Part shown: positions 6,967 through 11,592 of the stretch, piece by piece | Position numbering within the stretch: position 1 is the first letter of the stretch | Layout: each line of letters starts with the position of its first letter | Source: an uncultured Bacilli bacterium | GTDB taxonomy: Bacteria; Bacillota_I; Bacilli_A; RF39; UBA660 | Direction: 5' to 3' | Length of the DNA stretch: 34,412 nt | Assembly: GCA_947632625.1 (NCBI GenBank) | Contig: CANRPZ010000003.1 | Coordinates: 1-34,412, forward strand | The notes under the pieces: generated by a model | Seen by the model: only the letters and a program-made list of their open reading frames with translations | Told to the model about the DNA's origin: nothing | Databases searched by the model: none | Translations under genes and position numbers: made by a program

Positions 6967-6993
6967 TAAATTAACATAGGAGGAAAAAGAATT

Positions 6994-8803
6994 ATGAAGA
7001 AAAGAAATAGAATCCTCCCAACCGAAACTAGCTTCGGGGGGGGGGTTATTAGAAAGTAATAATAAACCAACGGAGCTACAAAGGTATAAGAAAAATACAA
7101 AGCAAAAGAAAATTTTAATTGGAGCAATAGTATTATTTATATTAATCATTGGCGGTATAAAACTATATCGCACTTTTGCATTGTATAAAGAAGAAAAATC
7201 CTTTAATGTATTAAAAGGAATAGTACCGGATTTTGTCGGAGGAGATGTAATACTCGCATTCACTGTAAATAATAAGGAAACAAATCACTTATCTTTCCCA
7301 AATAAAGGAGAAGGATATAAAGTAGATAAAGTAACTTGTGAGAATGATGTAAAAGCAGATTGGAATAACAATTCTTGGAGTCTAGAAATAAAGGATAGTA
7401 ACAAACAAAGAAAAATAAAATGTACAATTAATTTTAATAAGTATCAAGAAAGTATATTAAATGAAGCAGACCCAGTATTAAAAGAAGGATTAGTAGCAGT
7501 AAAAGTTGATAAAGATACAGGTGCAGTAACCAAAGCAGATACAACAAAACAATGGTATAGCTATGAGAATCAAGAATGGGCAAATGCGGTAATACTAACA
7601 AATGGTAAAACAGCAGATAACTACCAAGATAATGACCCGATACCAGAGGCAGATATCGAAAGTTATTTTGTATGGATACCAAAATATAAATATCAAATAT
7701 TCGATATGGGAAATTATACAACGAGAGAAGAAGATAGTAGTTATCAAGATAATGAACAAGCTATAGAAATAAAATTTGGCTTAACGAATACTATAGACGA
7801 TGAGGAAGAATGCATTGCTCCACCAAGTGGAGAGAATGGTACTTGTGCTGTAAATAAATGGATGACGCATCCAGCGTTTACTGCTTTTGATACAAACGGA
7901 ATCTGGGTTGGAAAGTTTAAGACAGGATACAAAGGAGCAAATAGTAAAACCGAAGCTGAACAAGATGGAGATGCATCTAAAATCATCATAAAACCAAATG
8001 AATATAGTTGGAGAGGTATAACTATAGGAATAATGTATCAAAATAGTTTAAATTATAATAAAGATTTAAATAGTCATATGTTAAAAAATACCGAATGGGG
8101 AGCAGTAGCTTATTTAGCCAACTCTATTTATGGACGATGTGACAAAAATACAAAGGAGTGTAGTGAAATACATGTCAATAATAATTCTGATTTTTTAACA
8201 GGTTATGCCGCAAAGCACAAATTTACAATAGGTTTTACTAGTACAAATGAGTCTTGTACAGAGCACTCTGATGCTTGTAATGAATATGGAGGATCAAGCA
8301 AAGGGCAAGACGGAACTTATAACTATCAATATTTTAGTCCAAAAAGTGTTAAGGCAAGTACCACAAATAATTACACTGGTATTTATGATATGAGTGGAGG
8401 TTCATGGGAATACGTAATGGGTGTGATGGTGGATGCAAATGATAATCCAATATATTTAAATAGTGAGTTAAGTGCAGATGATTTAAAAGACGAGAGATAT
8501 TATGATGACTATAAAAATGGTGTCGAATTCCAATATACAAGTCGAATATTAGGAGATGCAACAGGAGAGATGGGACCATTTATTCAAGAACAATATACGG
8601 GAACAACAACTACTGCAGTAGAACAAACTAGAACAATTAGTGGATGGTATCATGATGAAGGTTGGTTTGTCTTGACTGGCAGTCCTTGGTTCCTGCGTGG
8701 TGGCGTTTACGATCACGGGTTTGAGGGCGGTGTTTTCACTTTCGTTCGCGGCGCAGGTGAGGCGTACGCGTACCGTGCTTTTCGCCTTGCTCTTGCCTTT
8801 TAG
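6994..8803 (+). CDS. Membrane-anchored variable surface protein with FGE-sulfatase/C-type-lectin-like C-terminus; out of frame at a G10 tract in this assembly (phase-OFF state or frameshifted)
   Basis: ATG 6994 with RBS ATAGGAGG reads MKKRNRILPTETSFGGGVIRK and stops at 7057. Removing one G joins it to LLESNNKPTELQRYKKNTKQKKILIGAIVLFILIIGGIKLYRTFALYKEEKSFNVLKG... (TM helix), continuous to TAG 8801-8803. The body has no ATG/GTG/TTG upstream of TTG 7181. Confidence 0.8.
7036..7045 (+). repeat. Poly-G tract (G10), candidate phase-variation tract
   Basis: Ten consecutive G, the only such G run seen in the window, inside the 5' coding region of the surface protein. Confidence 0.85.
8661..8803 (+). 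other. Candidate DGR variable repeat (VR) at the 3' end of the surface-protein gene
   Basis: 80/143 G+C and only 12 A versus about 51 T, against an AT-rich, A-rich coding strand elsewhere. Encodes GWFVLTGSPWFLRGGVYDHGFEGGVFTFVRGAGEAYAYRAFRLALAF, with many codons ending in C/T. Confidence 0.65.
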
Positions 8804-8858: not shown

Positions 8859-9941
8859 ATGAGTAAACTTAAAGTATATGTTTATGCCATTTGTAAAAAT
8901 GAAAGTAAATTTGTTAAAGATTATATTGCTAGCATGAGTGAAGCAGATGGCATTTATGTATTGGATACTGGTTCACAAGATGATACTGTAAAATTACTAA
9001 AAAAATATAAAAATGTTCATGTAAAAGAAGAAAAAATAGAGCCTTTTCGTTTTGACGTTGCTAGAAATAAATCTTTAGAAATGGTTCCTAAAGATGCGGA
9101 TATTTGTGTTTGTACAGATTTTGATGAGGTCTTTCAAAAAGGATGGCGAAAGAAATTAGAAGAGGTTTGGGTAAAAGAAAATCCAACTCGTGTAGAATAT
9201 TTATATAACTGGAGTTTTAATGAATATGGAAAACCAGCTACAACCTTTTATATGTCTAAAATTCATAAAAGAGATGCTTATATTTGGCATCATCCCGTTC
9301 ATGAGGTTTTAAAATGTTTAATTCCTAATGAAAAAAGTGTAATTGCTGAAGGCATAGTTTTAAATCATCATCAAGATTTTAAAAAACCAAGAACAAGTTA
9401 TTTATCACTTTTGGAATTAAGTGTAAAAGAGGAACCTGAAGATGATCGAAATATGCATTATTTAGGCCGTGAATATATGTATTATCAAAAATGGAATGAA
9501 GCTATTGATACATTAATTCGTCATTTAAATCTAAAAAGTAGTACTTGGAAAGATGAAAGAGCGGCTTCTATGCGATTTATTGCTCGATCTTATATGGGAT
9601 TAAAAAGACCATTAGAAGCTAAAATGTGGTATTTACAAGCCATAAAAGAAGCTCCTTATTTAAGAGAAGCTTATGTTGAACTTGCAGAAATTTATTATAA
9701 TGAGCAAGAATATGATAATAGTTATTACTATTTAACGGAAGCTAATAAAATAAAAACGAAACCAATTAGCTATATTAATGAAGATTTTTGTTGGAATGCT
9801 TATTTTTATGATTTATATAGTGTTGTTTGTTATTATACAAAACATTATGAAGAGGCCATTATAAATGTTAAAAAAGCTATTGAGTTAGACCCTAATAATG
9901 AAAGATTAAAAACCAATTTACAAATAATGGAAAAAAAATAG
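8859..9941 (+). CDS. Glycosyltransferase family 2 with C-terminal TPR-like repeats
   Basis: YAICKNESKFVKDYIASMSEADGIYVLDTGSQDDTVKLL...CTDFDEVF GT-A motifs, then TPR-like helices (MWYLQAIKEAPYLREAYVELAEIYYNEQEYDNSYYYLTEA). Confidence 0.8.
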   Translation: MSKLKVYVYAICKNESKFVKDYIASMSEADGIYVLDTGSQDDTVKLLKKYKNVHVKEEKIEPFRFDVARNKSLEMVPKDADICVCTDFDEVFQKGWRKKLEEVWVKENPTRVEYLYNWSFNEYGKPATTFYMSKIHKRDAYIWHHPVHEVLKCLIPNEKSVIAEGIVLNHHQDFKKPRTSYLSLLELSVKEEPEDDRNMHYLGREYMYYQKWNEAIDTLIRHLNLKSSTWKDERAASMRFIARSYMGLKRPLEAKMWYLQAIKEAPYLREAYVELAEIYYNEQEYDNSYYYLTEANKIKTKPISYINEDFCWNAYFYDLYSVVCYYTKHYEEAIINVKKAIELDPNNERLKTNLQIMEKK

Positions 9942-9961
9942 TCTGATTTTTATCAGGCTAT
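9938..9961. terminator. Bidirectional terminator between convergent genes
   Basis: ATAGTCTGAT/ATCAGGCTAT stem (one G.T pair) with A run on the left; TTTT loop. Confidence 0.6.
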
Positions 9962-11503
9962 TAATTTGGCATGTACAACTAATCTTTCCGTATAATTTGT
10001 ACAAGTTGATAATGTTAAGATTTTATCCCCAGGTTTTACCTCAATATTAAAATCTTCTATGCTTCTTTCTTTAATTAAACTTACAAAATCATTAAAATCT
10101 TCATCAGTTTCAAAATAATTTTGTAGATAATCGGTAGTTTTGGGAACTTTATAAATAGAAAAAATCTGATACTTATGACTTTCGTAAATTGTGTCAAAGG
10201 TAATAATTAAATTTTCTGTATTGCTATACCAACTTTTCTTAAGAGCATTCGATAATGTTCCGAACATAACACTACTATAGTACATAGTATGACCAAATAT
10301 TATTGTATTATCATCCATTTCATAATCATTATTTCGATAATCCATAAAAATCCAACCGTTTTTATCCTCTTCATTATAAAGATTATGTTTTAAATAATAC
10401 TCATTATCTTTGGCTTGGACAACAGGATAGTCAATATTTGTGTCGTTTACTTTAAGCCATCCCACTACATCTGGATTTATAGATAAAATAGATGCAATAT
10501 AATTATTTTTAATTTCTCGTTGGGGATCAATTTCGTCTATTAAAGCAGGTGGCGTTTGATTATCTCGAATCGTTTCCCGAATATTTTCTTGAATTTCATT
10601 AACCTCTTGTAGTGATTTATAATTTGTAATAACAATATATAAAATAATTCCGGAAACGAGTATGACTAAAATTGAACCAATAATTTTTAATGTATTCATC
10701 ATGATTTGAATGAAAAGATTATTATTTAAGTATTCTTTGGAATAGACTAGTTCAATTTTGATTTTATTTTTGCGAATTTTTTTATTTAATTTTTTTAAAT
10801 ATTCAATCGATTTACTATCTTTAATATTAGAATAGATTAAGATTTTAATATTGCGCAAGCGATTATCACATAAAATTTCTAGAATAGTTTCTAAATCTTG
10901 TTTGTTATAAACATCCAAATGAATTGTTTTTAAATATTTGTTAATATTACAAAAAGCTAAAAAGTCATCTTTGTCATCTTCATCTAATAAAGTATCAATA
11001 TGAACATTCATTTTATAAAATATTTTAGAATAACTTGTTAAATTATTGCTTTGCATAAAATGACTAAGGTAAAATAGCTCGGTTCTCGATTCAGAATGAA
11101 TGCCCTTTTTATCTAACATTTCAATCATATAGGATGGAATATGTTCGGCTTCTATGTAGTTAATATTTTTATTTTCTAGAATTTTTTCATATAACTCATA
11201 GGATAGGGGAGCATTTTCTCTTATACATACCGCTGTAATATAAGGATTTTTTCTTAATAAATCTAATATGAAGATTGCAAGTTCATTATTTTCAAATGTA
11301 ACTCGATACACTTTTTTTTCTTGGCATATTTCATTAATAAATAAAGAAACTAGCTTTTCATTATCTAATATATAGTTTGGCGTAAAAATAAGTTCACTAT
11401 CATTAATTATATTAGTGTTTGATAAATTTGGTTTAACCGAAGGGGCATTTTTATATGCAAAAATAAGGGAATCATTGTAAATACTAATTTGAATTTTTTG
11501 CAT
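9953..11503 (-). CDS. Class B-like sortase with about 265-aa N-terminal cytosolic domain before the TM helix
   Basis: C-terminal domain IDYPVVQAKDNEYYLKHNLYNEEDKNGWIFMDYRNN...IIFGHTMYYSSVMFGTL...LTLSTCTNYTERLVVHAKL (His, TLSTC Cys, Arg). TM helix IIGSILVILVSGIILYIVI. Start set at ATG 11503 (RBS AAAGGTGGTG). Confidence 0.88.
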   Translation of the reverse strand: MQKIQISIYNDSLIFAYKNAPSVKPNLSNTNIINDSELIFTPNYILDNEKLVSLFINEICQEKKVYRVTFENNELAIFILDLLRKNPYITAVCIRENAPLSYELYEKILENKNINYIEAEHIPSYMIEMLDKKGIHSESRTELFYLSHFMQSNNLTSYSKIFYKMNVHIDTLLDEDDKDDFLAFCNINKYLKTIHLDVYNKQDLETILEILCDNRLRNIKILIYSNIKDSKSIEYLKKLNKKIRKNKIKIELVYSKEYLNNNLFIQIMMNTLKIIGSILVILVSGIILYIVITNYKSLQEVNEIQENIRETIRDNQTPPALIDEIDPQREIKNNYIASILSINPDVVGWLKVNDTNIDYPVVQAKDNEYYLKHNLYNEEDKNGWIFMDYRNNDYEMDDNTIIFGHTMYYSSVMFGTLSNALKKSWYSNTENLIITFDTIYESHKYQIFSIYKVPKTTDYLQNYFETDEDFNDFVSLIKERSIEDFNIEVKPGDKILTLSTCTNYTERLVVHAKLIA

Positions 11504-11592
11504 AAGTTCACCACCTTTTTTTACTCTTATGATACTATAATAACACAAATTTACACTTTTTTATAAAAAAATGTAGCATTTAGGTATTTTTA

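Follow-up and report, generated by a model that had tools for sequence, protein, structure and literature searches.

What is the 3′ end of a putative surface-protein gene of an uncultured Bacilli bacterium? The window, which is the whole analysed stretch of 34,412 nucleotides, is contig C3 of a 1.04 Mb metagenome-assembled genome (MAG; 91 contigs, approximately 92% complete) and has an overall G+C content of 28.5%. The last 143 nt of the gene (8661–8803) contain 80 G+C and 12 A (T51 G47 C33 A12), exactly as given in the original prediction. That prediction interpreted the segment as a variable repeat (VR) of a diversity-generating retroelement (DGR) and proposed targeting in trans, with neither a reverse transcriptase (RT) nor a template repeat in the window. 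It named as its refuting outcome the absence of both from the complete genome, together with no excess of variation in the segment among close relatives. The results described below make it very likely that the stretch is the VR of a remote target of a DGR, with a poly-G switch at the other end of the same gene.

The genome contains one RVT_1 gene (RT PF00078, 60 bits), which is located on contig C25. The encoded RT has 344 aa and the motifs IGNYTSQ and YMDD (RYMDD). The SQ form of the IGNYTSQ motif is kept in all 29 scored relatives. The RVT_1 match and the motifs show that the RT is of the DGR type, without an RT phylogeny that includes reference DGRs. The elements on C25 are arranged in the order: 3′ end of a target gene with its repeat (298–436), template (616–755), an open reading frame (ORF) for a protein with MutS domain I, Avd, and RT. 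Avd (118 aa, PF22296) reaches 87.4 bits against NF033474 DivGenRetAVD, an NCBIfam equivalog with a curated cut-off of 80 bits. The MutS domain I protein has 121 aa (MutS_I, PF01624), and MutS-like proteins with PF01624 have been described as a DGR accessory, MSL (PMC10053308). The ORFs of RT, Avd, and the MutS-like protein are intact. RTs with 50–74% identity are encoded by named relatives, all of them MAGs from animal guts (uncultured Bacilli, 'Tenericutes', and Clostridia). A scan of viral contigs did not identify any relative of the RT, and an ORF near the DGR on C25 looks like ribonuclease HIII, as read by eye without a family search. Therefore, a phage origin of the DGR was rejected, and the element is likely to be chromosomal.

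A query of the genome with the template identified 15 dispersed repeats on 15 contigs, in addition to weak chance matches. The changes in the window repeat, counted in Table 1, are restricted to template adenines (Fisher p = 4.9e-14), and the p-values of the adenine restriction over the 15 repeats range from 2e-2 to 5e-14. Five further clean repeats (C25, C59, C10, C24, and C76) have 1–3 non-A changes, and the one on C24 matches all non-A template sites except one. The remaining nine repeats are diverged, with 9–34 non-A changes, which we interpret as greater age. Pairwise identity among the six tight VRs is 97–100% at template non-A sites and 35–68% at A sites, compared to 79–90% in the 280 nt upstream and 53–78% in the 100 nt downstream. 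Copying from a common mutated template explains why identity is highest within the repeat, adenines excepted, a pattern that duplication would not produce. Thus, the six tight VRs very likely bear the signature of mutagenic retrohoming, as inferred from sequence alone. In the clean repeats, template adenines are changed to G 54 times, to T 28 times, and to C 13 times. The original prediction expected AAC or AAT codons in the template, and eight are present. Substitution at A cannot convert such codons into stops.

The 21-nt 3′ end of the repeat resembles an initiation-of-mutagenic-homing (IMH) sequence, a function that is inferred. It is identical in the template and all six tight repeats and altered in six of the nine diverged ones. 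Template positions 22 and 72 are C in the template and T in the window repeat and most other repeats, indicating that the template changed after their last full rewriting; the retained T shows that the window repeat has not been fully rewritten since. A stem-loop, AGCGC-GTAA-GCGCT, follows the repeat beside the template. It is absent after the window repeat, and a search for a downstream stem-loop common to all VRs did not find one. Related loci display the same adenine pattern, for example changes at 21 of 29 A and 0 of 96 other sites at L131.

On the features accessible here, apart from the downstream stem-loop, the system qualifies as a DGR: it has a DGR-type RT, Avd, a template near the RT and a VR in a coding gene, adenine restriction, and the IMH-like end. 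RT, Avd, template, repeats, and adenine restriction are shown by the sequence, whereas current retrohoming is inferred in the absence of reads or same-species strains. The reading of 8661–8803 as a VR held, since the segment is a near copy of the C25 template with changes almost only at template adenines. RT and template are indeed missing from the window and occur on a different contig of the same genome, in agreement with targeting in trans, and the refuting outcome did not materialize. The genome search that had been suggested, for a near-identical repeat beside a DGR RT, was successful and revealed Avd and adenine-restricted differences. The suggested comparison of close relatives was replaced by that of the 15 paralogous repeats of one genome, in place of strains or reads.

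A mechanical ORF search yielded a 540-aa ORF (7181–8803, TTG start at 7181) that is only part of the window gene. The gene is longer and likely starts at an ATG preceded by a Shine-Dalgarno sequence (Table 1). In the present assembly, its frame is broken by a G10 tract, which the original prediction had missed. In a frame test over tract lengths, nine G resulted in an open frame of 602 codons with a stop at 8803, whereas with 10 or 11 G the frame closed after approximately 20 codons. From N- to C-terminus, the protein has a short basic segment, a single membrane helix, an extracellular region, and finally the repeat; the extracellular placement and surface exposure are inferred. Directly after the target lies a glycosyltransferase-like gene (8859–9941), followed on the opposite strand by a sortase-like gene (9953–11548), both read by eye without a family search. 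It is possible that their products modify or anchor the surface protein.

Table 1. Features of the DGR target gene in the window
Feature	Position	Strand	Basis
Shine-Dalgarno AGGAGG of target gene	6978–6983	+	Sequence; SD-ATG cassette common to ~20 places in genome
DGR target gene, type II membrane surface protein (surface exposure inferred), FGE/C-type-lectin-like C-terminal region	6994–8803	+	Frame test over tract lengths; homologues 37–47% identical beside DGR RTs in related genomes
Conserved CCTCCC motif with Leu CTC codon, downstream of start and upstream of G-tract	7014–7019	+	In 52/57 cassettes of genus
Poly-G tract (G10), ON/OFF switching by strand slippage predicted, in frame at lengths that are multiples of 3	7036–7045	+	G9/G10/G11 in same cassette at ~15 loci; only one register opens gene
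N-terminal transmembrane helix, limits approximate	7112–7168	+	ILIGAIVLFILIIGGIKLY in translation; long N-terminal helix, model residues 11–45
Variable repeat, 3′ end of gene	8662–8800	+	84% identity to template C25:616–755; changes at 21/32 A sites and 3/107 others
Invariant 3′ end of repeat, IMH-like, TGCTTTTCGCCTTGCTCTTGC	8776–8796	+	Intact in 6/6 tight and 3/9 diverged repeats (p = 0.017)

Pfam, NCBIfam, and PDB sequence searches with the window protein found nothing of note, so that homologues and a predicted fold were needed to characterize it. Homologues with 25–47% identity (alignment A1) are encoded beside DGR RTs in related genomes. FGE-sulfatase PF03781 is matched by 12 of 30 homologues and not by the window protein itself. 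The AlphaFold2 model (pLDDT 76, pTM 0.77) was compared with PDB structures, and the first match was TaqVP of the Thermus aquaticus DGR (E = 2e-7), followed by Mtd of phage BPP-1 (3.6e-4) and PvdO, with low overall TM-scores of 0.28–0.31 by query. TaqVP is the best solved-structure match to the predicted fold; however, its sequence identity to the window protein is 14%, and the window protein has an additional N-terminal membrane anchor and further domains. The homologues and the model make it very likely that the VR is contained in a C-terminal FGE/C-type-lectin fold, the type of product that the original prediction had expected.

The genome contains 22 distinct tracts of eight or more G, compared to 0.74 expected from composition. 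Approximately 15 of them belong to one 5′ cassette, ATG-AAG-AAA-AGA...CCTCCCAACC...TTC-G(9–11)-TTRTTA, in which the tract is G9 five times, G10 nine times, and G11 once within one assembly. These differences between loci and their consequences for the frame are shown, whereas current slippage, switching in vivo, and mixed lengths within a population are inferred, again without reads or strains of the species. Homopolymer length decides the frame or the promoter spacing, as is characteristic of slipped-strand phase-variable genes. Most contigs break at these repeats, so that the 5′ end lies within the contig for just two of the 15 repeat genes: the window gene, which has the tract, and the gene on C43, which has its own start without a G-tract. 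Two further cassettes, on C54 and C21, can be linked to repeat genes on C7 and C77 through exact overlaps of contig ends (53 and 65 nt), subject to repeat ambiguity. The C43 gene (8599–10350, L034) begins directly with MKLQRYKK, is preceded by a -35/-10-like promoter containing ACGTATA repeats, and may be an always-on or separately regulated copy.

The codon CTC accounts for none of 414 Leu codons in the sampled window genes, yet it is kept in the CCTCCC motif of the cassette. The motif could pair with the Shine-Dalgarno sequence or the G-tract. In the folding prediction for the window gene, CCUCCC hides the Shine-Dalgarno sequence, and the tract competes only from G11–G12. An RNA switch based on this hiding is not supported, because the genus-wide folding test was negative, with no difference in Shine-Dalgarno accessibility between 39 cassettes and 93 control genes (p = 0.18).

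Cassettes with the Shine-Dalgarno sequence, ATG, and tract were found in 14 of 22 genomes of the genus, whereas a reversed control pattern had no match in the same 22 genomes. Few genomes of the wider family have the cassette. In the assembly consensus, seven of 46 scorable cassettes are in frame and 39 are out of frame, the latter mostly with G10, while G9 is the in-frame length. In a relative with an RT 74% identical (L125), the tract lies at the beginning of the coding region of the target next to the template, and at L138 and L154 the tract is located between the -35-like and -10-like elements of the target promoter. In a comparison covering 80 related RT loci, a tract was present near the 5′ end of five of 21 complete targets and four of 689 other ORFs used as controls (p = 1.6e-6). 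Many members of the genus have the poly-G cassette without this RT. Therefore, the switch does not belong to the DGR, and these genes are where two separable systems meet. In another family member (G096), a DGR-like RT frame at C1:92585–93508 contains seven TAG codons and might be a pseudogene or reflect TAG recoding; the genome has a separate poly-G cassette.

In the proposed mechanism, RNA of the C25 template repeat would be copied to cDNA by the DGR RT with Avd, and probably also the MutS-like protein. The cDNA would be randomized opposite template adenines and replace the 3′ end of target genes, so that a single template would serve approximately 15 genes scattered over the genome. The products are predicted to be type II membrane proteins, with the randomized surface presented outside the cell by a C-terminal FGE/C-type-lectin-like region. 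The varied face may bind a ligand such as a glycan or a host or phage protein, which is an inference. In the window gene and many members of its family, a tract of 9–11 G closely follows the start codon, and slippage in it would turn each of these genes ON or OFF. The likely logic would be a mostly OFF repertoire of surface proteins, occasionally switched on, with binding faces rewritten from one template.

One rival explanation is that duplication or ordinary gene conversion dispersed the repeats as mere ends of paralogous genes, and that the template-like copy is a broken paralogue. It is favored by the paralogy of the target genes, with their 79–90% identical upstream sequence, and by the breaks of the MAG at these repeats. 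However, the differences sit on template adenines (p down to 5e-14), non-A sites are nearly identical while both flanks are diverged, the template adjoins RT and Avd, and the pattern recurs in many related genomes. Adenine restriction at six or more loci refutes duplication as the sole cause, leaving this explanation all but excluded. A DGR that was once real and is now decaying, with the window repeat as a frozen relic and targeting lost at most of the 15 repeats, would account for the nine repeats with many non-A changes, six of them with an altered IMH-like end. It would also account for the lack of the two recent template changes and of the downstream stem-loop at the window repeat, and for genus members without a detected RT. 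Decay is nevertheless improbable, because the RT, Avd, and MutS-like protein are still encoded by intact ORFs, the window repeat combines a preserved IMH-like end with just three non-A changes, and the C24 repeat departs from the template at a single non-A site.

It could also be argued that the poly-G tract is no switch, either because ribosomal or transcriptional slippage yields some full-length protein at any tract length or because G10 reflects assembly errors. The predominance of out-of-frame cassettes, mostly G10 with G9 in frame, is consistent with this, and homopolymers are hard to assemble, with contigs ending there. Against it, tract lengths vary between loci within one assembly, long downstream frames stay open, and DGR targets in two other genomes have the tract between -35-like and -10-like elements, the classic position of such a switch. 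We consider this alternative unlikely, and a remote DGR target with a poly-G switch remains the preferred reading.

Among the closest reference systems is the DGR of Bordetella phage BPP-1 (Mtd, bRT, Avd), with which the present one shares the RT, Avd, template, and, at the 3′ end of a gene of the C-type-lectin type, an adenine-restricted VR; its Mtd was also recovered by the fold search. Unlike the phage-borne system, the present one appears chromosomal and has approximately 15 remote targets, a MutS-like accessory, and the G-tract at target 5′ ends. One or two DGRs serve many dispersed 3′-end VRs in cyanobacteria, including Trichodesmium erythraeum with 18 TR/VR loci (PMC7517822, PMC8867640). 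Those DGRs belong to a different phylum, and the relevant sections of the two papers do not mention a poly-G switch. Thiohalocapsa PB-PSB1 has 15 target proteins with 21 VRs, for which diversification in trans was inferred; in contrast to the single locus here, it has nine DGR loci, and its targets are putative conflict-system sensors (PMC10907252). Thus, the number of remote targets alone is not new. Surface genes of other bacteria have tracts of about ten G in the 5′ coding region or promoter spacer and undergo slipped-strand phase variation. To our knowledge, such variation has not been combined with DGR target genes, and the open-access literature searched contained nothing that joins DGR targets with homopolymer phase variation at the target gene. 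The new elements are this coupling, as far as that literature goes, and the gene start at 6994 with its frame-breaking G10.

A bolder reading, which may as easily prove wrong as right, is that DGR mutagenesis and slipped-strand switching form one two-layer system of surface variation in this lineage. A mostly silent repertoire of approximately 15 genes would be rewritten at the binding face, and slippage would pick the copies displayed. If so, the system could store variants unseen and sample them, and two known routes of targeted diversity would be joined in the same genes of a gut bacterium with a reduced genome. The suggested division of labor is that slippage chooses the gene that is seen and the retroelement alters what its product binds. 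The reading opens to testing the idea that DGR repertoires undergo screening gene by gene, and would show by what means a small genome can maintain an antigen-like repertoire.

G-tracts also occur in this genome outside the cassette. Tracts of G10–G11 are located between TTGAC(A/T) and TATAAT-like elements at C4:25479–25488 (L078) and C20:329–339 (L081), and for a tract of the same group at the end of C50 (L088) the -10-like element alone is visible. The three are likely phase-variable promoters of other genes. On C29 (10959–10969 and 12474–12484, L084), two copies of a membrane-protein-like gene have a G11 tract in identical surrounding sequence, and at C20:13490 (L082) an in-frame G9 tract is located just past the start of an acyltransferase-like gene, as read by eye.
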